This document shows, piece after piece, positions 40,793 to 60,963 of a stretch of 64,000 bases of DNA. Under the pieces are notes generated by a model. That model saw only the letters and a list, made by a program, of their open reading frames with translations. It was not told where the DNA came from and did no database searches. Position 1 is the stretch's first letter. Every line of letters starts with the position of its first letter. Source of the stretch: Burkholderia pyrrocinia. GTDB taxonomy: Bacteria; Pseudomonadota; Gammaproteobacteria; Burkholderiales; Burkholderiaceae. Position numbers and translations under genes: made by a program. The DNA lies in the NCBI RefSeq assembly GCF_022809715.1, contig NZ_CP094461.1:62001-126000 (forward strand). The letters run 5' to 3'.

Positions 40793-40819
40793 TATTCTCC
40801 GCAGAAATTGCGGAGAATA
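40793..40819. promoter_or_regulatory. Fic upstream palindrome (27 bp)
   Basis: Arms TATTCTCCGCA and TGCGGAGAATA are a perfect 11-bp inverted repeat around five bases. It matches the palindrome at 40846-40872 at 20 of 27 positions, 53 bp away centre to centre, five helical turns. Confidence 0.75.
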
Positions 40820-40845
40820 TTAGGCCGTGCGGTGAATCGGTGGGA

Positions 40846-40872
40846 TAATCTCCGCATCATGAGCGGAGATTA
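40846..40872. promoter_or_regulatory. Fic start-codon palindrome (27 bp)
   Basis: Arms TAATCTCCGC (40846-40855) and GCGGAGATTA (40863-40872) flank seven bases that contain the ATG at 40859. A protein bound here would block initiation; in RNA it could also hide the start in a 10-bp hairpin. Confidence 0.78.
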
Positions 40873-41980
40873 CACCTTCATCTGGGAGGCGGCCGACTGG
40901 CCCGCGTGGCGCTTCGACCTCCCGGCACTCGCCACGTCACTCGCCGACGTCAGCCGTGCGCAAGGCATGCTGGCCGGGCGGCTGGCGGATATCGGCCTGG
41001 CGCTGCGCGATGAGGCCAGCCTGGTCGCGCTGACGGAGGACGTCGTCAAGACCAGCGCCATCGAGGGAGAAAACCTGAACGTCGCATCGGTCCGGTCGTC
41101 GATTGCGCGCCGGCTCGGGGTCGATATCGGTGCGCTTGCGCCGGTCGATCGCCACGTCGAGGGCGTGGTCGACATGGTGCTGGACGCGACGACCCATTCG
41201 GCGGCACCGGTCACCGAAAGCCGTTTGTTCGGATGGCATGCAGCCCTTTTCCCGACCGGCTATTCGGGGATGTCGCGGATCACGGTCGGCGCATGGCGTA
41301 CGGATGCAAGCGGCCCGATGCAGGTGGTGTCCGGGCCGATCGGCCGGCAACGCGTGCATTTCGAAGCACCGCCGGCCACGCGCCTGACCAGCGAGGTCGC
41401 GCGCTTTCTCGCCTGGTTCAATGCCGCGCCGGTCGAGCCCTTGCTGATCCGGGCCGGCCTGGCCCATCTGTGGTTCGTCACGCTCCATCCGTTCGACGAC
41501 GGCAACGGCCGTATCGCGCGAGCGCTCGGGGATCTCGTCCTCGCGCGCGCCGATCGGAGTCCGCAGCGCTTCTATAGCCTGTCGGCGCAAATCCAGCGTG
41601 AGCGTAACGCGTATTACGACGTGCTGGAGCGGACGCAGCGCGGTTCGCTCGATGTCACGGAATGGCTCGCGTGGTTCTTGAATGCACTCGGCAGGGCCAT
41701 CGATCACGCGCACACGACGCTCGACGCGGTCCTGGTCAAGGCGCGCTTCTGGCAGCGATGTGCGGGCTTCGCGATGAACGAGCGTCAGGTCAAGGTCATG
41801 AATCGCCTGCTCGACGGCTTCGAAGGGAAGTTGACGACCACCAAGTGGGCGGCTCTCGCAAAGTGTTCGCAAGATACGGCGCTGCGCGACATCACGGAAC
41901 TCGTCGAGCACGGTGTGCTGCGTCGCTCGTCGTCCGGCGGGCGGAGCACGAGTTACGAGGTTGTGCCGTTCGATGCCTAG
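40859..41980 (+). CDS. Fic AMP-transferase with DUF4172 N-terminus and C-terminal HTH
   Basis: The 373-residue protein has an N-terminal DUF4172 region with class-II inhibitory helix TSAIEG (65-70; Glu69), the core motif HPFDDGNGRIAR (210-221; catalytic His210), and a C-terminal winged helix (MNRLLDGFEGKLTTTKWAAL, CSQDTALRDITELVEHGVLR). Fic enzymes transfer AMP to protein hydroxyls, and Glu69 should block ATP until released. The start codon lies inside a palindrome that the C-terminal HTH might bind. No antitoxin is adjacent, consistent with an intramolecular inhibitor. Confidence 0.93.
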   Translation: MSGDYTFIWEAADWPAWRFDLPALATSLADVSRAQGMLAGRLADIGLALRDEASLVALTEDVVKTSAIEGENLNVASVRSSIARRLGVDIGALAPVDRHVEGVVDMVLDATTHSAAPVTESRLFGWHAALFPTGYSGMSRITVGAWRTDASGPMQVVSGPIGRQRVHFEAPPATRLTSEVARFLAWFNAAPVEPLLIRAGLAHLWFVTLHPFDDGNGRIARALGDLVLARADRSPQRFYSLSAQIQRERNAYYDVLERTQRGSLDVTEWLAWFLNALGRAIDHAHTTLDAVLVKARFWQRCAGFAMNERQVKVMNRLLDGFEGKLTTTKWAALAKCSQDTALRDITELVEHGVLRRSSSGGRSTSYEVVPFDA

Positions 41981-42161: not shown

Positions 42162-42229
42162 TTTCCCGGCAGGTGGGAAATAGATTCCTTTTTCCGCTCT
42201 GTGTAACCGCGAGCAGCGAATATACACTC
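42162..42229 (+). promoter_or_regulatory. Shared promoter element A (upstream of porin leader)
   Basis: This 68-bp block aligns without gaps to 46178-46245 with 51 identities. It begins with inverted repeat TTTCCC-N7-GGGAAA (42163-42181) and ends with a -10-like TATACA near 42222-42227. The same -10 position is kept in the other copy (TATAGA). A perfect hairpin ATGCCGG/CCGGCAT lies just upstream (42141-42158). Confidence 0.75.
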
Positions 42230-42244
42230 GCCCGAAAGCGGGAT

Positions 42245-42313
42245 ATGGATATCAGCGACGACGGCAGCATGGCGACGTGGAGACGCGCAGACGTCACCCA
42301 TTCGGGGTGACGT
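42245..42313 (+). other. Possible leader peptide and hairpin before the porin
   Basis: A 21-codon frame (42245-42310, MDISDDGSMATWRRADVTHS then G and TGA) begins 16 bases past element A. A perfect 9-bp hairpin (42291-42299 with 42305-42313) overlaps its stop codon. Together with the 345-base leader to the porin it hints at translational or attenuation control. The remaining gap (41981-42161, 42314-42574) shows no gene; its right part is AT-rich. Confidence 0.35.
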
Positions 42314-42574
42314 TGCCTCTCCAGCTTTCTCAAGCATTTTCCGGAAAGCGTCGCTGGAACGTACGATCCGACTACCGTATCTGGCAGATTAAATTCATAT
42401 CCGATGTAATTCGGATTACTACGTTATTTGATTGGCGGAATGAAATTCTTCGACGTATTCCGGGTCGAGGGAGCGACTTGCTTGACGGAAGTAGACGAAA
42501 GTGATTTGCCGACGAGCAATGGAAACCAATTGCTCGCCAGATAAAAAGAGAAGTCCATATACAGGAGCGGAGAC

Positions 42575-43762
42575 ATGATGAAAAAGGTGTTGTTCGGGAT
42601 AACGGCGGTGACGGCGGCGGTTTCAGCCAGCGCGCAGAGCAGCGTGACGCTCTATGGCATTGTAGACAATGGGCTTCAATACGAGACCGGGCAGCCGAAG
42701 GGGCATGTCTTCGGAGCGCAAAGCGGCGGGTGGGCGCAATCGCGATTCGGTCTCACGGGCGCGGAGGATCTCGGCGGCGGCACCCAGGCCATCTTCCAGC
42801 TGGAGTCGCGTCTGAATACGCAAAACGGCAGCCTGGCAAACGGTAGTTTCTTCGAAGGGCAGGCAACGGTCGGCCTGAAAAGCAATACCTGGGGGCAGCT
42901 GAAGCTGGGCAACATGGGCTCGGCGGAGATCAGCCAGTATTCCGGTGACGTCGATCCGCAGCAGACGAAGAAGTACGCGATCGGGACCCTGGTACGCGGC
43001 CGGATCTTTTCGCAGGCGGGCAACGGCATCGAATATCTGTCGCCGAAGATCGCCGGCTTCGTCCTCCAGGCGCAATACGATCTGACGAATTCACCGAAAT
43101 GGAATGCCGGCAATCCCGGCAGCGCGCCCGGGCAGCTCGGCACTTCGACGGGCCTCGGCAGCGCGCAGGGGCGCACCGATGGCATCAAGCTGTCGTACCA
43201 GAACGGTGGGCTTTTCTGGCAGGCGACGTATGACGAAGTCCGCGACCAGAATGGAAAGTTCAGTAACGTGTATCTCGCGTCGCGCTCGATACTCACGGGC
43301 GCAACGTATGCGTTCGGGCCGGTCGTCGCGTATGTCGGATATCAGCACCTGAGCGCACCCGATGCGTCGAACGCAGGGTATTTCGGCGGCGCCGCACCGA
43401 CCGCGCTGCCGGCCGGCACGTCGCTGCCCACCGCAGTCAACCATGAATGGATCGGCGCGATCTGGCAGAGCACGCCGGCGCTGGCTATTACCGGGGCGGT
43501 CTATCACGCCAACGCGAATCGGGGTAATGGCAATGCGACGCTGTTTACGCTGGGCGCGAACTATTCGTTGTCCAAACGTACACTCCTTTACACGGAGCTG
43601 GGCTACGTTCGCAACAGTTCGACGTCGAACCTCGGTCTCGATAGCGGGCTGTATGGCGCCAATTCCAATTTCGATCCGGCCAGCGCCAGCGCTTCCGCGA
43701 CGAATCCGGATTACGGAAAAAGCCAGTTTGGCGTGATTGCGGGCATCGCTACGCGGTTTTAA
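42575..43762 (+). CDS. OmpC-like porin of the catabolic cluster
   Basis: The 395-residue porin has a short signal peptide (MMKKVLFGITAVTAAVSASA), then QSSVTLYGIVDNGLQYETGQ and C-terminal GVIAGIATRF. GGAG precedes the ATG. It is the first gene after shared promoter element A and probably admits the substrate of the downstream pathway through the outer membrane. It converges with the LacI gene (60 bp gap). Confidence 0.94.
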   Translation: MMKKVLFGITAVTAAVSASAQSSVTLYGIVDNGLQYETGQPKGHVFGAQSGGWAQSRFGLTGAEDLGGGTQAIFQLESRLNTQNGSLANGSFFEGQATVGLKSNTWGQLKLGNMGSAEISQYSGDVDPQQTKKYAIGTLVRGRIFSQAGNGIEYLSPKIAGFVLQAQYDLTNSPKWNAGNPGSAPGQLGTSTGLGSAQGRTDGIKLSYQNGGLFWQATYDEVRDQNGKFSNVYLASRSILTGATYAFGPVVAYVGYQHLSAPDASNAGYFGGAAPTALPAGTSLPTAVNHEWIGAIWQSTPALAITGAVYHANANRGNGNATLFTLGANYSLSKRTLLYTELGYVRNSSTSNLGLDSGLYGANSNFDPASASASATNPDYGKSQFGVIAGIATRF

Positions 43763-43821
43763 CGCGACGAGCGGCGACCCGGCCGCTCGAATGCCTGATT
43801 ACTCGAGGGGCATTCGTGCGG

Positions 43822-44865
43822 CTAACCGCGAAAGCGAGCGGCGACGTGTTCGGGCACGTTCTCCGGTGTGATGACGACGACCGATGACGTATGCGAAATC
43901 GCCGATGCGGGCAGCATCTTGTGAAAACTCATCACGTGCTGACACGCCGCGCGCATGTCCTGTCGAAGGTCGTGGTAAAGGATTGCGTGAATCCTGCCTT
44001 CTCGCAGCAGTTCGATGTTGTCGCAGTCGAGGTCGTGGCCGATGAAGCACTTCGGTGTTTTTCCCAGTGCATCCAGGGCTCGCAGGATGGCGCGATTGCC
44101 GCCGCCCATCGAATAGACGGCGGCGATGTTGTCCTCGCGGCCGAGTGCCTGACTGACCAGCTTTTCAGTCGGGCCGTCGAGCCCATGCCCTCCGCTCGCA
44201 TCAATGAGCGAAACGTGCGGGTGCCGGGTGCGCAATGCGCGTCGGAAGCTGATTTCGCGCTCCTCTTCGCCCCTGAAGCGTTCGTCGCTCATGGTGATGA
44301 GCACGTTGGCGGGCCGCTCGGGCAGCCATTGCGTGAGCAGGTAGGCGGCGGTCGCTCCCGCGACCCGATTGTCGAGGCCTGTATAAGCGATTCGATCGGA
44401 GAGCGGGATGTCGGTGAATGTCGTGACGACGGGAATGCCGGCGCGTTTGAGTTCGCCGATGGCGTTTGCGATCTCGGGCACGTCGCGCGCTTTCAGGAAA
44501 ACCCCGTGGCTGCCGTGGTGGGCAATCGAACGAAGCGCATCGACGACCTCCCGCGTCTGCATCGTCTCCTGCATGAAATACCGCGGGCGGAATATCGCGG
44601 GTTGCAGAGTGGGCAGTTCCGCTTCCAGCGCGTCCTTGATTTCGGCCGCGAATCGGTTCGGTGCCTCAACGACCACGTCGACGCTGAGCTTTCTTCCGGC
44701 CGCGACCGAATAGAGCGCCTGTTTTTCCAGCTCCTTGATCGCTTGCTCCACACGTTTTCGCGTGTGCTCGCGCACGTTGCCGCGGTTGTTGACTACGCGA
44801 TCGACCGTCGCGACGCCAACGCCCGCCTGAAGGGCGATCTCCTTGATCAGAAAACGGTGGGCCAC
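43822..44865 (-). CDS. LacI-family regulator (GTG start)
   Basis: The 347-residue repressor has the HTH and hinge FLIKEIALQAGVGVATVDRV / VNNRGNVREHTRKRVEQAI, then a periplasmic-binding-like domain that resembles pentose or inositol-sensing members (GLDNRVAGATAAYLLTQWLP). The only good start is GTG 44865 with GGGAG nine bases upstream. It lies between the porin and the LysR gene, so it is a likely regulator of the sugar or cyclitol branch. Confidence 0.92.
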   Translation of the reverse strand: MAHRFLIKEIALQAGVGVATVDRVVNNRGNVREHTRKRVEQAIKELEKQALYSVAAGRKLSVDVVVEAPNRFAAEIKDALEAELPTLQPAIFRPRYFMQETMQTREVVDALRSIAHHGSHGVFLKARDVPEIANAIGELKRAGIPVVTTFTDIPLSDRIAYTGLDNRVAGATAAYLLTQWLPERPANVLITMSDERFRGEEEREISFRRALRTRHPHVSLIDASGGHGLDGPTEKLVSQALGREDNIAAVYSMGGGNRAILRALDALGKTPKCFIGHDLDCDNIELLREGRIHAILYHDLRQDMRAACQHVMSFHKMLPASAISHTSSVVVITPENVPEHVAARFRG

Positions 44866-45224
44866 GGCGTGCGTCTCCCGAATGATGTTTTTTTGATGGG
44901 ACGATGATAGCTCAATCCGGCGCAGACCACCGTGGTCACGATGCCGTGCTCCCCGAGTATTCCGGTGCGTGTGCGGCTTCGCTTCTATTCATTCCGTCGA
45001 AAAACGGGGGGCCAGTAACCTCACGCAAGCTAGCCATGACGACGGCACAGCCAGTGTCGGGAAATCCCCACGTCTGATGTATTTTTGATGGATTTATGAA
45101 GTGATGTTGATGCGTGAGCTGTCGTATTCTTTCCACGCATGAAGGGTAGTGGCGTTCGTCCGGCGGTTGCATGTGGCACGCGGCACCGTCCGAGACATGC
45201 GAATCACCGGGATGAAACAGGGCG
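44866..45224. other. LacI / LysR divergent intergenic region
   Basis: 359 bp with no gene. TTTTTGATGG occurs at 44890-44899 and at 45082-45091, near each divergent start, and GGGAAATCCC at about 45059-45068 is a short palindrome-like block. These are weak candidate sites. Confidence 0.4.
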
Positions 45225-46139
45225 ATGGATCAGTTCAAGGAAGTACAGCTGTTCGTGGAAGTGGCGGAGACCGGAAGCATCAGCCGGGCCGCCGAGGCGG
45301 TCGACCTGTCCATCTCCGCGGCGAGTCGCTACCTGATTTCGCTGGAGAGCCGTCTTGGCGTGCAACTCGTGCGCCGGACTACCCGAAATCTCTTTCTGAC
45401 CGAGGCGGGCGCGGAGTTCCATCGGCGCTGCAAATCGATCCTTGCCGACCTCGGAGAGGCCGAGCTGGTCGTCAAGGATGCAACGGCGCGCCCGAGCGGG
45501 GTGCTCAAGGTGACGGCCTCGCTGTCGTTCTGCATGTTGCACATCGCGCCCATGCTGCCGGAATTTACCGCGCGCTATCCGGATATCACCGTTGATGTCG
45601 TGGCAGCCAATCGCTATTACGACATCATCGAAAACGGCATCGATGTCGCTGTCCGGACGAAGGTGCTGGAGGCCGACAGCAACATCACCGTGCGCCGGCT
45701 CGCGTCGACACGGCGCGTGCTTGCCGCCGCGCCGGGCTACCTGGCGGCGCATGGCACGCCGGGATTTCCCGCTGAGCTCGGCAAGCACAAGCTGCTCAAC
45801 TACGGGCTCGCGGACAACCCGCGCGACCTCGCGTTCCAGCGCGACGGCGAATGCGTTCTCGTCAAGGTCAAGCCGTTGCTCGAATCGAACGACGGTCAGA
45901 TCTTGAGAGTCGCCGCGCTCGACGGCATGGGCATCCTGGTTCAGCCCAAGTACATCGTCTACGACGACATCAAGGCCGGGCGGCTCATCCCCGTGCTGGA
46001 CGAGTGGGACTTGCCGCGGCTCACGATGAATGTCGCGTTCCAGACGCGCTCGCACATGCCCGTGAAGGTTCGTCTGTTCATCGACGCGCTCGTCGAACGA
46101 TTTCGCAGGAACGATTTCGAGCGGCTCTGGACCGAGTGA
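45225..46139 (+). CDS. LysR-family regulator of the catabolic cluster
   Basis: The 304-residue regulator (MDQFKEVQLFVEVAETGSIS; LSISAASRYLISLESRLGVQ) with an AaeR/CrgA-like effector domain lies directly before the dioxygenase gene (144 bp), same strand. It is one of two candidates for binding the TTTCCC-N7-GGGAAA repeat at 46179-46197. Confidence 0.92.
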   Translation: MDQFKEVQLFVEVAETGSISRAAEAVDLSISAASRYLISLESRLGVQLVRRTTRNLFLTEAGAEFHRRCKSILADLGEAELVVKDATARPSGVLKVTASLSFCMLHIAPMLPEFTARYPDITVDVVAANRYYDIIENGIDVAVRTKVLEADSNITVRRLASTRRVLAAAPGYLAAHGTPGFPAELGKHKLLNYGLADNPRDLAFQRDGECVLVKVKPLLESNDGQILRVAALDGMGILVQPKYIVYDDIKAGRLIPVLDEWDLPRLTMNVAFQTRSHMPVKVRLFIDALVERFRRNDFERLWTE

Positions 46140-46177
46140 TGGCGCATGCCATCGTGCAGGTCCCGAGCCGCGCGCAA

Positions 46178-46245
46178 CTTTCCCGCGGTCAGGGAAATAG
46201 ATTCCCTTTTTGGCTCTGTTTTGCCGGCAGGAGCAAATATAGACT
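46178..46245 (+). promoter_or_regulatory. Shared promoter element B (dioxygenase promoter)
   Basis: This is the second copy of the 68-bp element: TTTCCC (46179-46184), seven bases, GGGAAA (46192-46197), then GCTCTG and -10-like TATAGA near 46238-46243. It ends 38 bases before the dioxygenase ATG. 51 of 68 positions match element A with no gap. Confidence 0.8.
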
Positions 46246-46283
46246 GCCTTCAAAGCTGTACAAGACATTGAAGGAGACGCTTC

Positions 46284-47207
46284 ATGCAACAGGTTGCATC
46301 CTCTGATTCGCCATCCCGTTCGCCGTATTTCGACGAGGAACATTCCGCCGACGTGGTGAACGCCCGCATGGGCGAACCGGCCGATCCGCGCCTCAAGCAC
46401 GTGATGTCGGTGCTGGTCAGGCATCTTCACGCGGCCGTGAAGGAAATCGAGCCCACGCACGAAGAGTGGTTTGCAGCCATTCGCTTTCTGACCGAGACCG
46501 GCCAGATGTGCAACAAATGGCGACAGGAGACCATCCTGCTGTCGGACATTCTCGGTGTCTCGATGCTGGTCGACGCGATCAATCATCGCCGCCCGAATGG
46601 CGCGACGCCGAATACCATTCTCGGCCCGTTCTATGTCGCGAATGCGCCGGCGTACGAGAACGGCGCGAACATCTGCCTCGACGGCAAGGGCGAACCGCTC
46701 GTCGTGTCCGGACGCGTGACGAACATCGCGGGCGAGCCGGTTCCGGGCGCGAAGCTCGAAGTCTGGCAGACGAACGACGACGGCTTCTACGATGTGCAGC
46801 AGAAAGGCATCCAGCCCGATTCGAACCTGCGCGGCGTCTTCACGTCGGATCGCGACGGCGCTTATGCGTTCAGGTCGGTCAAGCCACGCCACTATCCGAT
46901 TCCGTCCGACGGCCCCGTGGGCAAGCTGCTCGGCGCGATGGGGCGGCATCCGAATCGCGCCGCGCATTTGCACTTCATCGTGACCGCGCCCGGCTACGAG
47001 CCGGTGATCACGCACATCTTCACGCCCGATTGCCCGTATCTGCCGGAAGACGCCGTATTCGGCGTCAAGCGCGAACTGATCGCCGACTTTCGGAAGATCG
47101 ACGACCGTGACGCCGCGCAAAAGGCCGGCCTCGACGCGCCGTTCTGGTCGGTGACGTGGGATTTCACGCTGGCGCCCGCCGGCGAGCGTCAGCCACGCCA
47201 CCCGTAA
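46284..47207 (+). CDS. Intradiol ring-cleavage dioxygenase, hydroxyquinol 1,2-dioxygenase-like
   Basis: The 307-residue non-haem Fe(III) enzyme has an N-terminal dimerisation part (about 25-100) and a C-terminal beta-barrel. Predicted Fe ligands are Tyr169 (DDGFYDVQ), Tyr204 (PRHYPIP), His228 and His230 (RAAHLHF); their spacing equals that of catechol 1,2-dioxygenase (Tyr164/200, His224/226). A maleylacetate reductase at 54773 implies 1,2,4-trihydroxybenzene as substrate, giving maleylacetate; catechol is the alternative. AAGGAG precedes the ATG. It is the first gene behind promoter element B. Confidence 0.9.
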   Translation: MQQVASSDSPSRSPYFDEEHSADVVNARMGEPADPRLKHVMSVLVRHLHAAVKEIEPTHEEWFAAIRFLTETGQMCNKWRQETILLSDILGVSMLVDAINHRRPNGATPNTILGPFYVANAPAYENGANICLDGKGEPLVVSGRVTNIAGEPVPGAKLEVWQTNDDGFYDVQQKGIQPDSNLRGVFTSDRDGAYAFRSVKPRHYPIPSDGPVGKLLGAMGRHPNRAAHLHFIVTAPGYEPVITHIFTPDCPYLPEDAVFGVKRELIADFRKIDDRDAAQKAGLDAPFWSVTWDFTLAPAGERQPRHP

Positions 47208-47274
47208 TCGCACGGCGCGCACGGAAGCGCGCCGCTGAAAACACGCAATCATCCGATCCATTGGACTCCTGAGC

Positions 47275-48156
47275 ATGAGCACGAAACGCAAAGAACTTCT
47301 GGCCGCCTACTGGACGCTTGCCGGCGATGTCTACCCCGGCGCCGCGACCGAAATCAGTCCGTATTCGTTGCGCGATCGCGCGGAGGCGGCGTCGCGCGCC
47401 GGCTGGTGCGGCGTGGGCCTCATCCTCGACGATCTGGAGCACAGCGTCGGGCAGTACGGGATTTCGGGCGTGAAGAGGATTCTCGAGGATACGGGGATGA
47501 AGTACTTCGAACTTGAAATCCTGATGGACTGGTATCTCGATGGAGAGCCGCGTGCGAGATCGGACCGCTTCCGCCATCGTGCAATCGAACTGGGCGCAGA
47601 ACTGGGCATGCGTAACCTGAAGATCGGCGCGAGCCCGTTCGATGAAAGTCCGGCCGACTTCCCGCGCATGACCGATGCGTTCGCGAAGCTCTGCGAGGAC
47701 GTGGCTGAGGTCGGCGCAACGGTCGCGATCGAGTTCATGCCGTTTTCCGTGATCCGGAACATCGGCGACGCGCTGAGGATTGCGCAAGACGCCAACCAGC
47801 CCAATGGCGGGCTGATGGTCGATCACTGGCACGTTGCCCGTTTTGGCAGCCCCTACAGCGAAGTCGCCGGCATTCCGGCGCGCTTCATCAAGGGCGTGGA
47901 ACTGGATGATGTCGGCGCGCAAATCCGGGGCACGCTGCTGGACGATTCGACGTTCAACCGCCAGCTGTGCGGCGAAGGGGCCGCCGATTGCCGTGCGTTC
48001 GTCAACGCACTCGAACAGGCGGGCTGCGACTTGCCGTATTACGGGGTCGAACTGATCTCGGAGCCGTTCCGCAAGCTGCCGCTCGAGCAGATGGCCCAAC
48101 GCGCGTACGAAACGACCATCGCGCAGTTTTCCACGCCGGCCGACGCCGCGGCCTGA
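47275..48156 (+). CDS. Sugar phosphate isomerase/epimerase-fold protein
   Basis: The 293-residue TIM barrel is of the AP-endonuclease-2/xylose-isomerase-like type. Candidate metal ligands are Glu in YFELEILMD, Glu in VAIEFMPFSV, His in LMVDHWHVARF and Glu in YYGVELISEPF. The fold includes inosose dehydratase (IolE) and the eliminases that act after C3 oxidation of glycosides. Beside an IolG-like dehydrogenase, a dehydratase or eliminase role on a keto-cyclitol or keto-glycoside is plausible but unproven. It starts 67 bp after the dioxygenase, with a weak ribosome site. Confidence 0.85.
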   Translation: MSTKRKELLAAYWTLAGDVYPGAATEISPYSLRDRAEAASRAGWCGVGLILDDLEHSVGQYGISGVKRILEDTGMKYFELEILMDWYLDGEPRARSDRFRHRAIELGAELGMRNLKIGASPFDESPADFPRMTDAFAKLCEDVAEVGATVAIEFMPFSVIRNIGDALRIAQDANQPNGGLMVDHWHVARFGSPYSEVAGIPARFIKGVELDDVGAQIRGTLLDDSTFNRQLCGEGAADCRAFVNALEQAGCDLPYYGVELISEPFRKLPLEQMAQRAYETTIAQFSTPADAAA

Positions 48157-48221
48157 CGTCCCACGCACGCGTGGCAAGCCTCGTGTCCAACACTTGAACC
48201 TGATTTTCTCCGGAGACAGAA

Positions 48222-49214
48222 ATGATTCGAATCGCCGTACTCGGCGCCGGCCGCATCGGTCGCATCCATGCCGGCAATGCAGCCTCCATCCCGAACGCGA
48301 AGCTCGTCGTGGTCGCAGACCCGGTGGCAGCCGCGGCCGAATCGCTCGCCGAACGCCTGGGTTGCGAGGCGTCGACCGACTGCATGGCCGTGCTCCGGCG
48401 CGACGATATCGACGCGGTGGTCATCGGCACGCCAACGGATACCCACATCTCGTTCATGCTGGAAGCCGTGGCGCGCGGCAAGGCCGTGCTCTGCGAAAAG
48501 CCCATCGATCTCGACATGGAGAAATCGCTCGCCGCGGCGCGCGAAGTCGAACGTCTGAACGGGCGCGTGATGCTCGCGTTCAACCGCCGCTTCGATCCGA
48601 CCTCCCAGGCGTTCCGTGCGGCGATCGACGCGGGCGATGTCGGCGAGGTTCGGCAGGTCATCATCTCGAGCCGCGATCCGGGCATGCCGCCGCGCGACTA
48701 CGTGGAGCATTCGGGCGGCATTTTCCGCGACATGGTGATCCACGATCTCGACATGGCCCGCTGGCTGCTCGGCGAGGAGCCGGTCGAGGTGATGGCGATG
48801 GCGAGCCGTCTTGTGGATTCCTCGCTGTCGGAACTGGGCGACTTCGACACGGTCATGGTGCAGTTGCGCACGGCGTCCGGCAAGCAATGCCACATCAACT
48901 GCTGCCGTGAAGCCGTCTACGGCTACGACCAGCGCATGGAAGTATCGGGTTCCAAGGGCATGCTGCTGCAGGAAAACCTGCGCCCGTCGACCATCCGTCG
49001 ATGGAGCAAGGAAGCGACCGACGTGCGCGAGCCGCTGCTCAACTTCTTCCTGGAGCGGTATGTCGACGCCTACAAGGGCGAACTGCAGGCTTTCGTCGAC
49101 GCCTTGCACAACGACACGCCGCTGCCGACTTCGGTCGACGACGGCCTCAAGGCGCTGCGCCTCGCGGAGTGCGCGCTCGAGTCCGCGACGTCCGGCAAGG
49201 CCGTCACGGTCTAA
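48222..49214 (+). CDS. iolG: Gfo/Idh/MocA dehydrogenase, inositol 2-dehydrogenase-like
   Basis: The 330-residue NAD(P) enzyme has Rossmann motif VLGAGRIGRIHAGNA, the family EKP motif (LCEKPIDLDM) and IolG-type blocks FNRRFDPTSQAFRAAI and SGGIFRDMVIHDLDMARWLL. IolG oxidises myo- or scyllo-inositol to an inosose. It may oxidise an inositol, a deoxyinositol or a glycoside here. GGAGA precedes the ATG; 65 bp separate it from the isomerase-fold gene. Confidence 0.88.
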   Translation: MIRIAVLGAGRIGRIHAGNAASIPNAKLVVVADPVAAAAESLAERLGCEASTDCMAVLRRDDIDAVVIGTPTDTHISFMLEAVARGKAVLCEKPIDLDMEKSLAAAREVERLNGRVMLAFNRRFDPTSQAFRAAIDAGDVGEVRQVIISSRDPGMPPRDYVEHSGGIFRDMVIHDLDMARWLLGEEPVEVMAMASRLVDSSLSELGDFDTVMVQLRTASGKQCHINCCREAVYGYDQRMEVSGSKGMLLQENLRPSTIRRWSKEATDVREPLLNFFLERYVDAYKGELQAFVDALHNDTPLPTSVDDGLKALRLAECALESATSGKAVTV

Positions 49215-49238
49215 CCATTGATCGGGAGGAAACACGTC

Positions 49239-50327
49239 ATGGTGCGAAAGATGGGTCCTGGAGAAACGGTTGGCGTTGCATGCCTCGGCATCACGCACCC
49301 GCACACGTCGGGGCGGGTCAAGGCGATCCGGCGCCGAACCGACGCAAGGATGCTCGGCGCGTGGGACACCAGCCCGCTGCTCACGCCGTTCGTCGATGCA
49401 CTGGGGCTGGAAGCCCGCTCGAAAGAGGACATCCTCGCCGACGAGAACGTGCACGTGGTCCTTGTGCACTCGAAAAGCGACAGGATGGCGGATCTGACGA
49501 TCGAGGCGCTCGAAGCCGGCAAGGCCGTGCTGTGCGAAAAGCCGGCGGGCCGCAGCTCCGAGGATGCGAAGCGGATCATGCAGGCCGTCGAGCGCACGGG
49601 AGGCCTCGTTCAGGTCGGTTACTGCTGGCGTTTCGCGCCGTCGGTGGACGCGATGCAGGCAGCACTGAAGAGCGGGCGTCTTGGCAAGGTCGTTCAGGTG
49701 CGCGCGCACGGCGGCTGCTCGCACGACGAAGCCGGGACGGCACACATGACCCAGCCCGGCGATATCGGCGGCGCGGTGTTCGTGATCGGATGCCATCTGG
49801 TCGATCGCATTCTCCTTCACTTCGGCACGCCTCGGTCGGTCAATGCGCGCATCACGAAGTTTCCCGGTTTTCACGGCGACGAGTCGCGCGAAGACGCGGC
49901 GGGCGCGGTTCTCAATTACGAAGACAAGATCGTGACCATCGATTTCATGTCGTGGGACGTGCTGCCGTGGACGGAGAGCTGGGACATCACGGCCTACGGG
50001 ACGGAAGGCATCATGTCGTCGCGATCGCTGCCGGCGAGCTACAAGATCTACGACGCCGGCAAGGGCGATTATCCGGAGGGCTGGACCGAGTGGCAGGAAA
50101 CGAGCTTCCCCGAAATCTGGGCAACGAAGAAGACCGAGTACTCCCCGGACATCGCTGAAATCGGCAACCCGGTCTACTTCGACCGCGAATCGAACGCGTT
50201 CTTCGACGCGCTGCGCAACCGCACGCCGTCGGTCGTGCCGGCTACCCAGGCATACAACATCAGCCGCGTGATCGAGGCCATGTTCGCGTCGTCGAAAAAA
50301 GCGGGCGCCGAGGTCTTCATCGAGTAG
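49239..50327 (+). CDS. Gfo/Idh/MocA-family oxidoreductase (second copy)
   Basis: The 362-residue protein has an atypical dinucleotide loop (CLGITHPHTSGRVKAIRRR) and the EKP motif (LCEKPAGRSSEDAK), then VGYCWRFAPSVDAM and an IGGAVF... active-site helix (DIGGAVFVIGCHLVDRILLH). GGAGG before ATG 49239 is preferred to a TTG at 49218. It differs clearly from the IolG-like gene before it and may act on a later or different keto-sugar intermediate. Confidence 0.9.
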   Translation: MVRKMGPGETVGVACLGITHPHTSGRVKAIRRRTDARMLGAWDTSPLLTPFVDALGLEARSKEDILADENVHVVLVHSKSDRMADLTIEALEAGKAVLCEKPAGRSSEDAKRIMQAVERTGGLVQVGYCWRFAPSVDAMQAALKSGRLGKVVQVRAHGGCSHDEAGTAHMTQPGDIGGAVFVIGCHLVDRILLHFGTPRSVNARITKFPGFHGDESREDAAGAVLNYEDKIVTIDFMSWDVLPWTESWDITAYGTEGIMSSRSLPASYKIYDAGKGDYPEGWTEWQETSFPEIWATKKTEYSPDIAEIGNPVYFDRESNAFFDALRNRTPSVVPATQAYNISRVIEAMFASSKKAGAEVFIE

Positions 50328-50409
50328 GCGGGAACCGGCCTCGCACCGAGGCCGGATCATCGGATCACCCGATCTTCAAATAAATAGCAGTCCATATCAG
50401 GAGACAGAA

Positions 50410-51480
50410 ATGAAAATCGTCAAGCGCCTCGCGATTGCAGCGGGCATCAGCATCGGACTGGCCGCCGTGTCGGCTTCGTCGTTCTCACAGGACAAGGGTG
50501 TCATCGGCATCTCGTTGCCGGACAAGACCGAGTCGCGGTGGCTCACCGACGGCAAGAGCATGGTCGATGCGCTGAAGGCGAAGGGCTATGCGGCCGATCT
50601 GCAGTATGCAAACTACGATGTCCCGACGCAGGTGAACCAGGTCGAGAACATGCTCGCCAAGGGCGTGAAGGCGCTGATCATCGCACCGATCGACGGCAAG
50701 ACTTTTTCCGATGCGCTCGCGTACGCGCAGAAAAAACACATCAAGGTCATTTCATACGACCGCCTGATCAGCCAGACGAAGGACGTCGACTACTACGCCA
50801 CGTTCGACAACTATGGCGTGGGCGTGCTGCAGGCGCAGAGCATCGTCGCCGCATGGCAGAAGAAGGGCGGCAAGACACCGTTCAACATCGAGGTCTTCGG
50901 CGGCTCCTCGGACGACAACAACGCGCACATGGTCTACGCGGGCGGCATGTCGGTGCTCAAGCCCTACATCGACAGCGGCAAGTTCGTGATTCGCAGCAAG
51001 CAGGCCGCATTCGAGAAGATCGCGACCCGCAACTGGGATGGCGCGACGGCCCAGTCGCGCATGGACAACCTGCTGAGCGCGTTCTACGGCAAGGACCGTC
51101 TCGATGCGGTCTGGACGCCGAACGACGCAATCGCCATCGGCGTGATTTCGTCGCTCAAGGGCGTGGGCTACGGCTCCGCACAAGCGCCTATGCCGGTGGT
51201 GACGGGGCAGGACGCCGATATCCAGAACATCAAGGCGATCATCCGCGGCGATCAGGCGACGACGGTGTTCAAGGATACGCGCAAGCTCGCGAGCGTCACG
51301 GCCGCGATGGTCGACGACGCGCTCGCCGGCAAGACGGTCGCGGTGAACGACACGAAGAGCTACGGCAACGGCGCGAAGATCGTGCCGACGTACCTGGTGA
51401 AACCCGTTCTCGTGGACAAGGACAACGTTCAGGCGACGCTCGTCAACAGCGGCTATTACACGCAGGCGCAACTCAAGTAA
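50410..51480 (+). CDS. chvE: ChvE-type periplasmic sugar-binding protein
   Basis: The 356-residue binding protein has a signal peptide ending about ASSFSQ. It matches Chv[61 protein letters not shown] and [18 protein letters not shown]. ChvE binds aldoses and related sugars or sugar acids and delivers them to GguAB, encoded next. The real ligand here may be the cluster substrate. GGAGACAGAA precedes the ATG, as before the IolG-like gene. Confidence 0.92.
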
Positions 51481-51536
51481 CCGCGGCGCAGCCGCGCGGG
51501 ACGCAACCCGGCGTGCGAGAAACGAGGAGGATGAAG

Positions 51537-53066
51537 ATGGACACCATTCTGGAGATGAACGGCATCCAGAAGGCATTCGGCCAGGTCAAGGCCCTGAACA
51601 ACGTCGACCTGCGAGTCGGAAGGGGCGAGATTCATGCCATCTGCGGCGAGAACGGTGCCGGAAAATCGACGCTGATGAAGATCCTGAGCGGCGTTTATGC
51701 ATACGGGTCCTACGCCGGCACGGTCGTGTACGACGGCGAGGAGCGCAGGTTCTCGGATATCACCGACAGCGAGGCGGTGGGCATCATCATCATCCATCAG
51801 GAGCTCGCTCTGGTGCCCATGCTGTCGATCACCGAGAACATTTTCCTGGGCAACGAGCAGTCGCGCAGAGGCGTCATCGACTGGCACGGCTCGCGTGCGC
51901 GCGCGAAGGCGTTGCTTCAGAAGGTCGGTCTCGGCGATTCGCCGGATACGCCCGTCGGCACGCTGGGCATCGGCAAGCAGCAGCTGGTGGAAATTGCGAA
52001 GGCGTTGTCGAAGGAAGTGCGGTTACTGATTCTGGACGAGCCCACGGCCAGCCTGAACGAAAAGGATAGCGAAACGTTGCTCGATTTGCTGCTGGACCTG
52101 AAGCGGCGCGGGGTGACGTCCATCATCATCTCGCACAAGCTCAACGAAATCTCGCGTGTCGCCGACAGCATTACGGTGATCCGCGACGGTTCGACCGTCG
52201 ACGAACTGGATTGCCGCGCGGAAAGCGTGAGCGAGGATCGCATCATCAAGGCGATGGTCGGCCGCGAAATGTCCGATCGGTATCCGAAGCGGGTTCCGAA
52301 CATCGGCGACGTCATCTTCGAGGTCAAGGACTGGCGTGTCCGGCATCCCACGCAGCGGGATCGTGCGGTCATCAAGGGTGTCGACCTGGTGGCACGTGCC
52401 GGAGAAATCGTCGGCATCGCCGGCCTGATGGGATCGGGGCGCACCGAGCTGGCGATGAGCATATTCGGCGGCGCGTACGGCCAGGACATCAGCGGCTCGG
52501 TGCTGATCCATGGAAAGCCGGTCGATGTGTCGTCCGTGCGTAAAGCCATCGATGCCGGGCTTGCTTATGTCACCGAGGATAGAAAGGGCAACGGCCTGCT
52601 TCTGGACGACGATATCCGGACGAACATCTCGCTGGCCAATCTCGCGGGCGTGTCGAAATACGGCATCGTGAATGAACACGAGGAAGCCAGCGTTGCGTCG
52701 GACTTTCTGGCAAAGCTGCGCATCCGGGCGCAGGGTGTATCGCACGTCGTCGGCAACCTGTCGGGTGGCAATCAGCAGAAGGTCGTGTTGAGCAAGTGGC
52801 TGTTCTCCGGGCCGGACGTGCTCATTCTCGACGAGCCGACCCGTGGCATCGACGTGGGTGCGAAGTACGAGATCTACAGCATCATCAATCAAGCGGTTGC
52901 GGCGGGCAAGTGCGTCGTGATGATTTCCTCGGAGATGCCGGAGCTTCTTGGCATGTGCGACCGCGTCTATGTGATGAACGAAGGCCGGTTCGTCGGCGAG
53001 TTCACATCGGAAGAAGTCTCGCAGGAGAAGATCATGCGGGCAATCATGCGAAATGGAGGCATCTGA
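51537..53066 (+). CDS. gguA: Sugar ABC transporter ATPase (GguA/MmsA)
   Basis: The 509-residue tandem ATPase has Walker [10 protein letters not shown] and Walker [12 protein letters not shown] in the first half, and a degenerate second Walker A (GLMGSGRTE) with signature [14 protein letters not shown] and [13 protein letters not shown] in the second, as usual in carbohydrate-type CUT2 importers. A GGAGG six bases before ATG 51537 decides this start over ATG 51531. It energises uptake with ChvE and GguB. Confidence 0.94.
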
Positions 53067-53067
53067 A

Positions 53068-54276
53068 ATGCGCAAGGCTCTCTCGCCAACGGCTCCGCAA
53101 GAAGGCGAAGTCAGGAACAGCGACATCATGAGCGCGATCAAGCGTGGTTTGAGCGAATACGGTTTGCTGTTCTCGCTCATCGTGATCATGGTCTTCTTCC
53201 AGGTCGCGACCGGCGGCGTGCTCATGCAGCCGCTGAACCTGACGAATCTCGTGCTGCAGAACAGCTACATCGTCATCATGGCGCTCGGGATGCTGATGGT
53301 GATCGTTGCCGGTCACATCGACCTGTCGGTCGGCTCGACGGCAGGCCTCGTGGGCGCGCTTGCGGCCGTGCTGATGGTGCAGTTCAACGTCAACTACGTG
53401 CTGGCCACCGTCGTTTGCATTGCGACGGGCGCGCTCATCGGCGCGGTGCAGGGGTACTGGATTGCGTTCTGGCGGATGCCGTCGTTCATCGTCACGCTGG
53501 CCGGCATGCTGGTGTTTCGCGGGCTGACCAATCTGGTCCTGCAGGGCCAGTCGATCGGCCCGTTCCCCGACGCCTTCGCGGCGGTGAGTTCGGGTTTCAT
53601 CCCCGACGTGTTCCGCGGCGAGGATCTTCATGTCACGTCGATCGTGCTCGGCGTCCTGGTGGGCGCGGCGTTCTTCGCGATCGAACTTCGCCATCGCGCG
53701 AGCGCGGCGAAGTACGGCATGGGCAACGGTTCATTCCCGATGATGGTCGCGAAGAACGCCGTGCTGACCGGATTGATCGTCTACTTCTGCTACCTCCTCG
53801 CGTCGTATCGGGGTTTGCCGACGGTGCTGGTCATCATGGGTGTGCTGATCGGGGTGTACACGTTCGTGATGAACCGTACGACGATCGGCCGTCGGGTCTA
53901 CGCGGTCGGCGGTAACGCGAAAGCAGCACGGCTTTCCGGGGTCAGCGTGCCCGCGGTGAGTTTTCTCACGTTCGTCAACATGGGTGTGCTCGCCGCGCTG
54001 GCGGGAATCATCTTTGCGGCCCGGCTCAACAGCGGCACGCCCAAGGCGGGGACCGGATTCGAGCTCGACGTCATCGCCGCGTGCTTTATCGGCGGCGCAT
54101 CGGCATCTGGCGGGGTGGGCAAGGTAGTGGGTGCCGTGGTCGGCGCATTCATCATGGGTGTGATGAACAACGGCATGTCCATCATGGGCATCGGTGTCGA
54201 CTATCAGCAGGTCATCAAGGGTGTCGTGTTGCTCGCGGCCGTGTTCGTCGACGTGTACAACAAGAACAAGGCCTGA
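53068..54276 (+). CDS. gguB: Sugar ABC transporter permease (GguB)
   Basis: The 402-residue CUT2 permease has about ten helices and motifs LGMLMVIVAGHIDLSVGSTA and TTIGRRVYAVGGNAKAARLS. ATG 53068 lies one base after the gguA stop with GGAGG eight bases upstream; the ATG at 53053 overlaps gguA and has no ribosome site. Confidence 0.94.
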   Translation: MRKALSPTAPQEGEVRNSDIMSAIKRGLSEYGLLFSLIVIMVFFQVATGGVLMQPLNLTNLVLQNSYIVIMALGMLMVIVAGHIDLSVGSTAGLVGALAAVLMVQFNVNYVLATVVCIATGALIGAVQGYWIAFWRMPSFIVTLAGMLVFRGLTNLVLQGQSIGPFPDAFAAVSSGFIPDVFRGEDLHVTSIVLGVLVGAAFFAIELRHRASAAKYGMGNGSFPMMVAKNAVLTGLIVYFCYLLASYRGLPTVLVIMGVLIGVYTFVMNRTTIGRRVYAVGGNAKAARLSGVSVPAVSFLTFVNMGVLAALAGIIFAARLNSGTPKAGTGFELDVIAACFIGGASASGGVGKVVGAVVGAFIMGVMNNGMSIMGIGVDYQQVIKGVVLLAAVFVDVYNKNKA

Positions 54277-54437
54277 TACACGCGGCGCCGATCGAGGGGA
54301 ACCGGGAGGACTCGGTCCGTGTGAGTGATTTCACGCGAGCGAGCAATGCGACAGGCGTCATGATCCGGGTCCCCGACAGCGGCGACTCCGGGAAACGTGT
54401 CGCCGGTCTGAGAACAAGCATCAGTGACGGAAGCGAC

Positions 54438-54734
54438 ATGATCAAGCACATCGTGATGTGGGACGTTCGAGGCGAGACGCCCGAACAAAAGAGGGAAACT
54501 GCGCAATTCGTCAAAACGGCATTCGAGAGCCTCGAAGGAAAGATTCCCGGTCTGACGAAACTGGAAGTGGGTATGGACTTCAGCAAGGTCGACTATGCGT
54601 GCGACGTCGTGCTGTATACCGAGTTCGAGAGCGTCGAGCATCTCGCAGCATACGCTTCCCACCCCGAACATCTGAGAGTCAAGCAGGTGCTTGGCGACTG
54701 CCGGATTTCGCGGCATCAGGTCGACTACGTCTGA
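54438..54734 (+). CDS. Dabb-family (stress-responsive A/B barrel) protein
   Basis: The 98-residue protein has a ferredoxin-like dimeric A/B barrel: MIKHIVMWDVRGETPEQKRE at the start and LAAYASHPEHLRVKQVLGDC near residue 75. The family includes polyketide cyclases such as olivetolic acid cyclase and proteins of unknown role. GGAAG precedes ATG 54438. It sits between the importer and the maleylacetate reductase, so it may act on a cyclic or keto intermediate, or be a binding partner. Confidence 0.88.
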   Translation: MIKHIVMWDVRGETPEQKRETAQFVKTAFESLEGKIPGLTKLEVGMDFSKVDYACDVVLYTEFESVEHLAAYASHPEHLRVKQVLGDCRISRHQVDYV

Positions 54735-54772
54735 TGTCTCCATCGGTCTGATACATAGCGAAAGGGCTTTTC

Positions 54773-55834
54773 ATGTACGACTTTACGTATACGACGCATG
54801 CGTCGCGCGTGATTTTTGGCGCCGGCAGCATGAATCTGGTCCAGCAGGAGGTCGAGAGGCTGGGTGCGCGCCGCGCGATCGTTCTGTGTACGCCGCAGCA
54901 GAAAGCGCAGGCAGAATCGGTCGCCGCGTTGCTCGGGCCGGCGAGCGCGGGTGTGTTCGATGGCGCGCAGATGCATGTGCCCATCGAGAATGCCCGTCGC
55001 GCCCGCGCATACGCGAAGGAAGTCGGCGCCGACTGCGCGATCGCCATCGGCGGTGGATCGACGATCGGGCTCGGCAAGGCGATTGCGCTCGAGTCGTCGT
55101 TGCCCATCATCGCGATTCCGACCACCTATGCCGGTTCGGAGATGACGCCCATCTTCGGCATTACCGAGGACGGCTTGAAAAGGACCGGGCGCGACGCGAA
55201 CGTGCTGCCCAGAACGGTGCTTTACGATCCGGAGCTATCGGTCGGGTTGCCCGCGCAGCTATCGTTTGTCAGCGGCTTGAACGCAATCGCGCATGCGGCG
55301 GAAGGGCTGTATGCGAAAGACGGCAATCCTGTCATGGCGTTGATGGCGGAAGAGGGTATCCGTTCGCTCGCAAAGGGGCTGCGGGGCATCAAGAAGCAGA
55401 ACCGAGACATGGAGGCGCGCAGCGACGCGCTTTACGGTGCCTGGCTGTGCGGCATGGTGCTCGGGACGGTCGGCATGGCGCTGCACCACAAGCTGTGTCA
55501 CACGCTGGGCGGCACGTTCAACCTCCCGCACGCCGAGACGCATGCGATCGTCCTGCCGCACGCGCTGGCGTACAACAGCCCGGTGGCGGAAGATGCGATG
55601 GCACGTATCGCGCGGGCACTCGATGCGCAGAGCGCCCCGGACGGGCTCTATGAACTGAATCGGGAACTGGGCGTGCCGGGCGGCCTGGGCGAAATCGGTA
55701 TGCGCGAGCAGGACCTCGACCGCGCTTGCGAGGTGGCAATGTCCAACCCGTATTGGAACCCGCGCCCCGTTGAGGCAGTGCCGCTTCGCGATCTCCTTCA
55801 ACGGGCGTGGGCGGGGAGCCGGCCACGTGCATGA
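54773..55834 (+). CDS. Maleylacetate reductase (iron-containing ADH family)
   Basis: The 353-residue enzyme opens MYDFTYTTHASRVIFGAGSM and has nucleotide loop AIGGGSTIGLGKAIA with IPTTYAGSEMTPIFGITEDG. Conserved histidines lie in HHKLCHTLGGTFNLPHAETH. It reduces maleylacetate to 3-oxoadipate with NAD(P)H, the step after hydroxyquinol ring cleavage. Length equals the family standard. It ends the cluster that starts at the porin. Confidence 0.94.
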   Translation: MYDFTYTTHASRVIFGAGSMNLVQQEVERLGARRAIVLCTPQQKAQAESVAALLGPASAGVFDGAQMHVPIENARRARAYAKEVGADCAIAIGGGSTIGLGKAIALESSLPIIAIPTTYAGSEMTPIFGITEDGLKRTGRDANVLPRTVLYDPELSVGLPAQLSFVSGLNAIAHAAEGLYAKDGNPVMALMAEEGIRSLAKGLRGIKKQNRDMEARSDALYGAWLCGMVLGTVGMALHHKLCHTLGGTFNLPHAETHAIVLPHALAYNSPVAEDAMARIARALDAQSAPDGLYELNRELGVPGGLGEIGMREQDLDRACEVAMSNPYWNPRPVEAVPLRDLLQRAWAGSRPRA

Positions 55835-59540: not shown

Positions 59541-59600
59541 ATTCCGCAAGCGACGGAATGGCCGGAACCGGCCGATACCCGAGACATGGAGACAAACGTA

Positions 59601-60920: not shown

Positions 60921-60963
60921 GCACGCAGCTTGTACACGCATTCACTGAAGGAAGGAGAAACAG

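Follow-up and report, generated by a model that had tools for sequence, protein, structure and literature searches.

Gene content of the locus

We analysed a 64,000-nucleotide stretch of the Burkholderia pyrrocinia genome (hereafter the window; positions 62001-126000 of contig NZ_CP094461.1, or C3, in a 7.69 Mb genome of 3 contigs), within which a block of 12 genes (window positions 42575-55834; Table 1) places a sugar-type importer and an inositol-type dehydrogenase together with genes for hydroxyquinol cleavage. Our findings are predictions from sequence comparison, and on that footing the block probably serves to import a cyclitol and convert its ring completely, via hydroxyquinol, to 3-oxoadipate, the most likely substrate being a deoxyinositol of the quercitol type (C6H12O5). 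Family models and matches in PDB confirmed the gene content proposed in an earlier reading made from the nucleotides and translations (hereafter the sequence-only reading), namely a ChvE-GguAB importer, an IolG-type dehydrogenase, a second Gfo/Idh/MocA protein (Gfo2), a dimeric alpha-beta barrel (Dabb) protein, an intradiol dioxygenase with four iron ligands (HQD) and a maleylacetate reductase (MAR). A triosephosphate isomerase (TIM)-barrel protein, here the TIM protein, is encoded between HQD and IolG. The genes from the LysR-family regulator through MAR share a single strand in an operon-like arrangement, with intergenic gaps of -14 to 161 bp. The block has the patchy distribution of an accessory element: its GC content is 0.623, versus 0.668 outside it, and, with the B. 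pyrrocinia genome itself counted in each case, TIM homologues of at least 45% identity occur in 4 of 65 genomes of the genus, and Gfo2 matches in 10 of 299 genomes of the family (E ≤ 1e-100) and 2 of 398 of the phylum (E ≤ 1e-60).

Table 1 Genes of the block, with window coordinates and supporting matches.
Gene product	Position	Strand	Evidence
Porin, Gram-negative (Porin_4)	42575..43762	+	Pfam PF13609, 165 bits; same position in many burkholderial relatives
LacI-family regulator, sugar-type Peripla_BP_4 domain	43822..44865	-	PF00356, PF13407; adjoins block in many burkholderial relatives
LysR-family regulator	45225..46139	+	PF00126, PF03466; in 64 of 80 TIM-bait loci
Hydroxyquinol 1,2-dioxygenase-type intradiol dioxygenase (HQD)	46284..47207	+	PF00775/PF04444; PDB matches; Fe ligands
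TIM protein, AP_endonuc_2 TIM barrel; proposed dehydratase/aromatase	47275..48156	+	PF01261
IolG-type inositol (cyclitol) dehydrogenase	48222..49214	+	TIGR04380, 394.5 bits (cut-off 355)
Gfo2, Gfo/Idh/MocA-fold protein without GxGxxG	49239..50327	+	PF01408/PF22725
ChvE-type sugar-binding protein	50410..51480	+	NF040907, 474.1 bits (cut-off 460)
GguA, sugar ABC transporter ATPase	51537..53066	+	NF040905, 844.7 bits (cut-off 810)
GguB, sugar ABC transporter permease	53053..54276	+	NF040906, 560.6 bits (cut-off 450)
Dabb (dimeric alpha-beta barrel) protein	54438..54734	+	PF07876, 82.2 bits
Maleylacetate reductase (MAR), iron alcohol dehydrogenase family	54773..55834	+	PF00465/PF25137; PDB matches

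Cyclitol and ring-cleavage genes recur together

An alignment of TIM proteins was used as bait on public genomes, and 80 of the 96 confirmed loci were kept (21 of the 80 are shorter than 20 kb, and two, L088 and L089, are places on one contig). At identity thresholds that we set for six markers (HQD 43%, MAR 55%, IolG 50%, Gfo2 60%, Dabb 55% and LysR 45%, each over half coverage), HQD was found at 67 of the 80 loci, MAR and IolG at 57 each, Gfo2 at 62, Dabb at 59 and LysR at 64, with all six markers at 43. The sequence-only reading had treated the sugar and aromatic genes as one unit, and this stood up: the two halves do co-occur elsewhere, HQD being accompanied by IolG or Gfo2 at 60 loci. The same gene set, spread over three proteobacterial classes in varying gene orders, was present in Paraburkholderia, Caballeronia, Trinickia, Collimonas, Cupriavidus, Acinetobacter, Pseudomonas, Azospirillum, Rhizobium, Thioclava and others, accompanied by either ChvE-GguAB (57-94% identity) or a different sugar-type ATP-binding cassette (ABC) importer (about 25-40%). 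When Gfo2 was used as a second bait on 299 genomes of the family, all nine other genomes having Gfo2 carried the full 12-gene block; eight of the nine contigs were already in the TIM-bait set, and this comparison therefore checked the bait and added no new species. Together, these comparisons support the view that the cyclitol/sugar genes and those for hydroxyquinol cleavage form one unit and are not together by chance.

Predicted functions of the enzymes

The best PDB matches of HQD are hydroxyquinol or chlorohydroxyquinol dioxygenases (8r2x, 317 bits; 3n9t (PnpC), 272; 1tmx, 253), versus 145 and 140.5 bits to the catechol dioxygenase structures 5td3 and 1dlm, and a catechol dioxygenase identity was judged unlikely. 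All four intradiol iron ligands (Y169, Y204, H228 and H230) are present, as are D88 and R225, and the protein is of the hydroxyquinol 1,2-dioxygenase type, with predicted activity on hydroxyquinol. Of 75 gene calls labelled HQD at related loci, 67 keep the iron ligands, the other eight being a second Pseudomonas copy (at L073, L077, L080, L081, L083, L084, L094 and L112). This intradiol-dioxygenase paralogue, 30-38% identical to the window's HQD and mostly beside MAR, has lost iron ligands in the presence of an intact operon copy, as if it had another function. MAR matched 3jzd (6e-154; named an iron-containing alcohol dehydrogenase), 3w5s (5e-122) and 3hl0 (1e-116), both of the latter named maleylacetate reductase, followed by 3iv7 (9e-87; named alcohol dehydrogenase IV) and the remaining iron alcohol dehydrogenases at 3e-35 or weaker; no NCBIfam model matched at or above its cut-off, and the structural matches place MAR, by similarity, in the maleylacetate reductase branch of the iron alcohol dehydrogenases. 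Dabb probably serves the hydroxyquinol end of the pathway, acting on hydroxyquinol or its cleavage product, because Dabb or YciI proteins also come after HQD in clusters in which no TIM match was found (for example, a Dabb homologue directly follows HQD in such a cluster of Variovorax).

The TIM protein is nearest in fold to Lmo2234, IolI and 5hmq (profile matches of 1e-43, 1e-21 and 7e-23, respectively), with a weaker match to AsbF (2.6e-5) and a match in fold to AtHYD, a 2-hydroxy-3-keto-glucal hydratase. Residues E153, D183, H186, E209, R229 and E259, which we take to have the metal-binding and catalytic roles of their counterparts in dehydratase-type TIM barrels, are invariant among 50 sequences and align with the corresponding positions of 5hmq and IolI, except that the third ligand is Glu (E209) in place of Gln or His. 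The description of this protein as 'IolE-fold' in the sequence-only reading proved too specific: the IolE model TIGR04379 gave no match at E ≤ 0.001, an IolE search of the B. pyrrocinia genome gave none in the window, and the sole above-cut-off IolE of the genome lies on contig C1, so IolE identity was judged unlikely and we favour a protein that, by sequence comparison, is nearer to IolI and 3-dehydroshikimate dehydratase. It is also distinct in size from the QuiC family (293 residues versus a 635-position model, NF042435, matched at 35.1 bits over model positions 13-254 against a cut-off of 1200). A scan of viral contigs with the TIM protein returned no relative, and none of the open-licence papers listed in a search for Lmo2234 mentions it. 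The TIM protein, of a kind annotated only as 'sugar phosphate isomerase/epimerase', resembles dehydratases that form aromatic rings.

On the cyclitol side, ChvE, GguA and GguB all pass NCBIfam equivalog cut-offs, and IolG, whose substrate remains a prediction, passes the inositol 2-dehydrogenase model TIGR04380, its top PDB matches being structures named inositol dehydrogenases. Gfo2 has a Gfo-type fold, nearest to levoglucosan dehydrogenase, nicotinamide adenine dinucleotide (NAD)-dependent glycoside hydrolases and DgpA; in place of the GxGxxG nucleotide-binding motif it has GITHPH (GITHPHTSGR), with G24, H27, P28 and H29 invariant in 42 rows and EKP (K108) and H193 kept (the start codon was assigned by the lengths of homologues and by a GGAGG lying upstream). 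Gfo-type proteins usually carry a TP motif at a position where the Gfo2 family has HSKS or HPKS, and many histidines are invariant among its 42 sequences. Calling Gfo2 a second dehydrogenase, as had been done, therefore went too far; it may be a Gfo-fold protein that does not bind NAD in the usual way, and may act as a reductase, second dehydrogenase or dehydratase. Plain inositol use is probably served elsewhere in the genome, because a separate iolE and another iolG on C1 exceed their cut-offs. No IolB-, IolC- or IolD-type gene was seen among the genes scanned in 42575-55834 and, given also the lack of an IolE match, membership in the canonical myo-inositol (iol) pathway was judged unlikely. 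A thiamine pyrophosphate enzyme beside a TIM relative at L068 was considered as IolD and set aside (297 bits, below the cut-off of 715, and equally acetolactate synthase-like).

Origin of the ring and end product

Ordinary hydroxyquinol clusters were represented by seven plasmid-borne control HQD loci, picked by us from 60 listed rows. Six of the seven carry an annotated flavin monooxygenase or hydroxylase, or else pair a flavin reductase with a gene for a decarboxylase or an acyl-CoA-dehydrogenase-like protein, and the seventh, from B. multivorans, has only a small Rieske protein. Ten hydroxylase-related proteins of these loci, including flavin reductases, a decarboxylase and the small Rieske protein, were used as queries and matched 1 of the 80 TIM loci (L077, at 20.2 kb, on the locus edge) and nothing at 38-60 kb of the window. 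As the queries came from the control loci, the control side of this comparison is circular and only the absence from TIM loci is informative, at that sensitivity. If no hydroxylase takes part, hydroxyquinol must either come in ready-made or be formed from a non-aromatic compound.

The fate of the cleaved ring is indicated by neighbouring genes in related clusters. On the Aureimonas plasmid pAU20b, a sugar ABC importer, TIM, iolG, Gfo, Dabb, MAR, HQD, CoA-transferase A/B and pcaF genes form one run; at an Acinetobacter locus (L063), HQD is followed by CoA-transferase A/B and pcaF genes, pcaF being above its cut-off in both; and in Puniceibacterium (L085), a gene for a 3-oxoadipate:acetyl-CoA acetyltransferase adjoins HQD (477.7 bits versus a cut-off of 350). 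Two different 3-oxoadipate chemistries in the same setting thus point to 3-oxoadipate as the product. Elsewhere in the B. pyrrocinia genome, two matches score above cut-off for pcaF and three for pcaI-type genes.

Variant clusters and probable exchange of dioxygenases

In Rhodococcus jostii RHA1, plasmid pRHL1 encodes a TIM protein (39% identity) with a short-chain dehydrogenase/reductase (SDR), HQD, MAR, a SnoaL-like protein and GguA/GguB-matching genes, along with two further genes with SDR-like beginnings. The clusters on Agrobacterium and Rhizobium plasmids have SDRs where the block has Gfo proteins, and also include a YciI protein; one such Agrobacterium plasmid (L125, typed as conjugative) has tautomerase, pcaF and CoA-transferase genes close by. 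Sugar-type importers accompany these variants too. The constant core is the TIM protein, HQD and MAR, with the dehydrogenase, the importer and the small protein varying around it.

Other arrangements depart further from the block. A Burkholderia variant (L026:5577-11475) has the order HQD-Dabb-flavin mononucleotide (FMN) reductase-amidohydrolase-TIM-MAR with a divergent LysR gene, has no IolG or Gfo2 match, and has a distant Gfo gene and a zinc alcohol dehydrogenase gene upstream; it may serve an amino or other analogue (the Pfam scan covered L026, gene lengths are similar at L058 and L061, and L059, L060 and L062 were left out). At L097, L108 and L111, a TIM relative (41-46%) and GguA-type ABC genes stand in one operon-like run without an HQD or MAR match, two SDRs being identified in the run at L108; these loci are possibly a further branch with another product fate. 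Beside the B. pyrrocinia block itself, a gene for a Fic-domain protein with DUF4172 lies directly upstream (window 40808-41980), and genes for a PfkB-family kinase, a major facilitator superfamily transporter and a dihydrodipicolinate synthase-family protein lie downstream (58614-61911), perhaps as a separate sugar-acid pathway.

In a tree of 44 dioxygenases, paralogues from the B. pyrrocinia genome included, the HQDs of TIM clusters did not form one clade (approximately unbiased test, P = 2.7e-76) and were interleaved with other HQDs: the cluster label changed 7 times, at least 5 changes being forced by well-supported branches, and 5-6 times after doubtful rows were dropped. For example, a Rhizobium leguminosarum HQD beside a gamma-resorcylate decarboxylase groups among the cluster HQDs of Rhizobium and Aureimonas. 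Several recruitments or exchanges of hydroxyquinol-type dioxygenases thus seem to have taken place between the TIM module and ordinary hydroxyquinol clusters. The label 'no TIM' of L147-L153 is based on about 6 kb on each side (at L151 an annotated TIM-barrel gene is cut by the locus edge), and L146 was entered as a cluster row with a fragmentary TIM gene. This last locus, on the Sphingopyxis plasmid pCMS1, is a broken relative of the cluster: pcaF and CoA-transferase genes lie upstream of a cluster-type HQD (75%), after which 48 residues of a TIM protein remain just ahead of an IS6100 copy.

Proposed pathway

In the proposed route, ChvE-GguAB, with the porin, would import the cyclitol, and IolG would oxidise one hydroxyl to a ketone (C6H10O5, 2-deoxy-inosose type). 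The two hydroxyls beta to the ketone would then leave as water, at least one of them removed by the TIM enzyme, to give hydroxyquinol (C6H6O3). HQD would open the ring, the product would tautomerise to maleylacetate, perhaps aided by Dabb, MAR would reduce maleylacetate to 3-oxoadipate, and pca enzymes would convert this to succinyl-CoA and acetyl-CoA. The sequence evidence covers the gene identities, their conserved linkage, the iron ligands, the 3-oxoadipate enzymes of related clusters and the formula balance, whereas we infer the substrate, the second dehydration, which enzyme removes which water, and what Gfo2 and Dabb do.

The preference for a deoxyinositol comes from formula balance and ring geometry. 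To reach C6H6O3, a deoxyinositol requires one oxidation and the loss of two waters, inositol three waters and no net oxidation, conduritol one oxidation and one water, and a tetrol two oxidations and one water. By our reasoning, if a deoxyinositol is oxidised next to its CH2 group, both beta hydroxyls can leave and the oxygens are kept at positions 1, 2 and 4, as in hydroxyquinol; an ordinary inosose would give a tetrahydroxybenzene, which would not reach 3-oxoadipate without a reduction, and a deoxyinositol is therefore preferred. Burkholderia terrae has a (-)-vibo-quercitol 1-dehydrogenase that interconverts quercitol and 2-deoxy-scyllo-inosose, a compound that can be converted chemically to 1,2,4-trihydroxybenzene, and this species (now Paraburkholderia) is listed with a TIM protein 77% identical to that of the window.

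Comparison with known systems

The sequence-only reading knew of no characterised cluster of exactly this composition, and we likewise found none described in open-licence papers (subscription papers may hold one). In the quinate/shikimate route to protocatechuate, a dehydrogenase yields a ring ketone, dehydration by a TIM-barrel enzyme gives an aromatic diol, an intradiol dioxygenase follows and 3-oxoadipate is the end product. The steps proposed for the block run parallel to these, and the TIM profile matches 5hmq and AsbF of that (QuiC/AsbF) chemistry, whereas the block would use a substrate without the carboxylate, hydroxyquinol instead of protocatechuate, an IolG-type dehydrogenase, a sugar ABC importer, and MAR instead of the lactone branch; by analogy, the proposed chemistry would be a decarboxy counterpart of the quinate route. 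The block shares with the canonical iol pathway an IolG that passes the inositol 2-dehydrogenase model, and differs from it in the IolB, IolC, IolD and IolE types noted above. The resorcinol and gamma-resorcylate clusters of the maleylacetate pathway likewise have HQD, usually MAR and sometimes Dabb or YciI, but those examined mostly carry the hydroxylase or decarboxylase that supplies hydroxyquinol. In Dgp C-glycoside deglycosylation systems (DgpA with DgpB/C), a Gfo/Idh/MocA enzyme stands beside an AP_endonuc_2 TIM barrel, as in the block; however, the only small block gene identified is Dabb (PF07876), of another family, as judged without a DgpB-specific model.

The nearest parallel, compared by its published description, is the iol2/iolT2-rhcM2D2 region of Corynebacterium glutamicum, where the genes for MAR and an intradiol dioxygenase are numbered close to those for inositol dehydrogenases, a putative sugar phosphate isomerase and an inositol/sugar transporter. 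According to the relevant passages of PMC9603128, the oxiC-cg3390-oxiD-oxiE genes (cg3389-cg3392) encode inositol-type dehydrogenases and the putative isomerase (cg3390), and cells grew on myo-inositol again with oxiD and, less rapidly, with oxiE, while OxiC is unassigned in function. The corresponding passages of PMC7764795 describe an iolT2-rhcM2D2 operon (rhcM2 is cg3386, and iolT2 would be cg3387) repressed by Cg3388, whose DNA binding was affected by 1,2,4-trihydroxybenzene from 0.05 mM, as well as by hydroquinone and indole, and hardly at all by inositol; rhcM2 RNA after inositol is likened there, in ambiguous wording, to that after indole addition. The terms maleylacetate, catechol, trihydroxybenzene and hydroxyquinol did not turn up when the main text of PMC9603128 was searched for them, and the passages of both papers on these genes contain no statement joining the two halves into one pathway. 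Unlike the block, the C. glutamicum region has a secondary transporter and an IclR-type regulator. C. glutamicum was not among the 120 relatives listed, of 706 matched, for the Rhodococcus TIM protein.

Weighing the alternatives

Cyclitol aromatisation was one of two explanations offered by the sequence-only reading, and it is favoured by the 3-oxoadipate enzymes, the near absence of hydroxylases and the dehydratase-like TIM protein, the substrate and chemistry being predictions. Several observations weigh against it or limit it. Many of the 80 TIM loci are from closely related Burkholderiaceae; 12 of the 80 lack both HQD and MAR at our thresholds (though the edge of L092 holds part of an HQD), so this route is not the only setting of the TIM family, and 7 have HQD or MAR yet neither IolG nor Gfo2. 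On the dioxygenase tree, the cluster label is barely more clumped than when shuffled (7 changes versus a mean of 9.2, and as low in 16 of 500 shuffles); as shuffled labels need that many changes on average, cluster and ordinary dioxygenases are well mixed, and the tree does not tell gain from loss of dioxygenases, long branches making single joins unsure. IolG scores above cut-off as an inositol 2-dehydrogenase, so no sequence feature demands a deoxy substrate; and no gene is clearly a second dehydratase among these predicted enzymes. One alternative is a redox-neutral aromatisation of inositol itself: IolG would oxidise, the TIM protein dehydrate and Gfo2 re-reduce a second keto group with NADH while two more waters leave (C6H12O6 minus 3 H2O), which balances with zero net oxidation, gives both Gfo-type proteins a job and agrees with the IolG score above the inositol 2-dehydrogenase cut-off and with the support of myo-inositol growth by OxiD and OxiE (PMC9603128, passages cited above). 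We nevertheless consider it unlikely, given the iolE and additional iolG elsewhere in the genome, the missing NAD motif of Gfo2 and the absence of Gfo2 from some clusters, while the statement on rhcM2 RNA (PMC7764795) can be read either way.

Breakdown of an aromatic O- or C-glycoside, the other explanation offered earlier, in which the Gfo enzymes would oxidise the sugar, the TIM protein eliminate the bond and the aglycone be hydroxyquinol, draws on the folds nearest to Gfo2 and on the AtHYD match of the TIM protein. It is disfavoured, and we think it improbable: with hydroxylases nearly absent, the aglycone must already be hydroxyquinol, no glycosidase, DgpB-like small subunit or keto-sugar enzyme was seen among the block genes scanned, and no C-glycoside deglycosidase was among the structures listed when PDB was searched with the TIM sequence. 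About as improbable is another reduced cyclitol as substrate, such as a conduritol, a dideoxyinositol tetrol or an aminocyclitol; the formula balance fits conduritol and tetrols, the tetrol route would use both Gfo proteins, and the FMN reductase and amidohydrolase of L026, without IolG or Gfo2, would suit an amino or other analogue, but nothing positive points to any such compound and IolG best matches named inositol dehydrogenases. That a sugar module and an unrelated aromatic module are adjacent by chance or co-transfer only would suit the patchy distribution of the block and its lower GC content, and is the least probable alternative, since the association of HQD with TIM, IolG and Gfo2 spans three proteobacterial classes and differing gene orders, the HQD clade differs between places, the TIM gene lies between HQD and IolG in the operon, and TIM, HQD and MAR recur with an SDR in Rhodococcus; the recurrence, the reordering and the exchanged dioxygenases led us to reject side-by-side coincidence or regard it as unlikely.

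Implications

If the deoxyinositol route proposed here is correct, cyclitol use would be joined to aromatic ring cleavage, two processes normally drawn apart, and genes annotated only as 'sugar phosphate isomerase/epimerase' would gain a function. It would also suggest why C. glutamicum keeps inositol-type dehydrogenases beside a trihydroxybenzene-regulated operon. More tentatively, and with somewhat less than even confidence, the block may represent a widespread strategy in Pseudomonadota and Actinomycetota in which cyclitols are aromatised by dehydrogenation and two or three dehydrations and burned via hydroxyquinol and 3-oxoadipate, with a constant TIM aromatase whose partner dehydrogenases (Gfo or SDR), importers and dioxygenases are exchangeable, and in which Gfo2 would be no plain NAD dehydrogenase and would carry out one of the dehydrations. 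Quercitols are plant metabolites, and the proposed route would predict which soil and plant bacteria use them; its enzymes could, in addition, yield hydroxyquinol from deoxy-inososes without petroleum.

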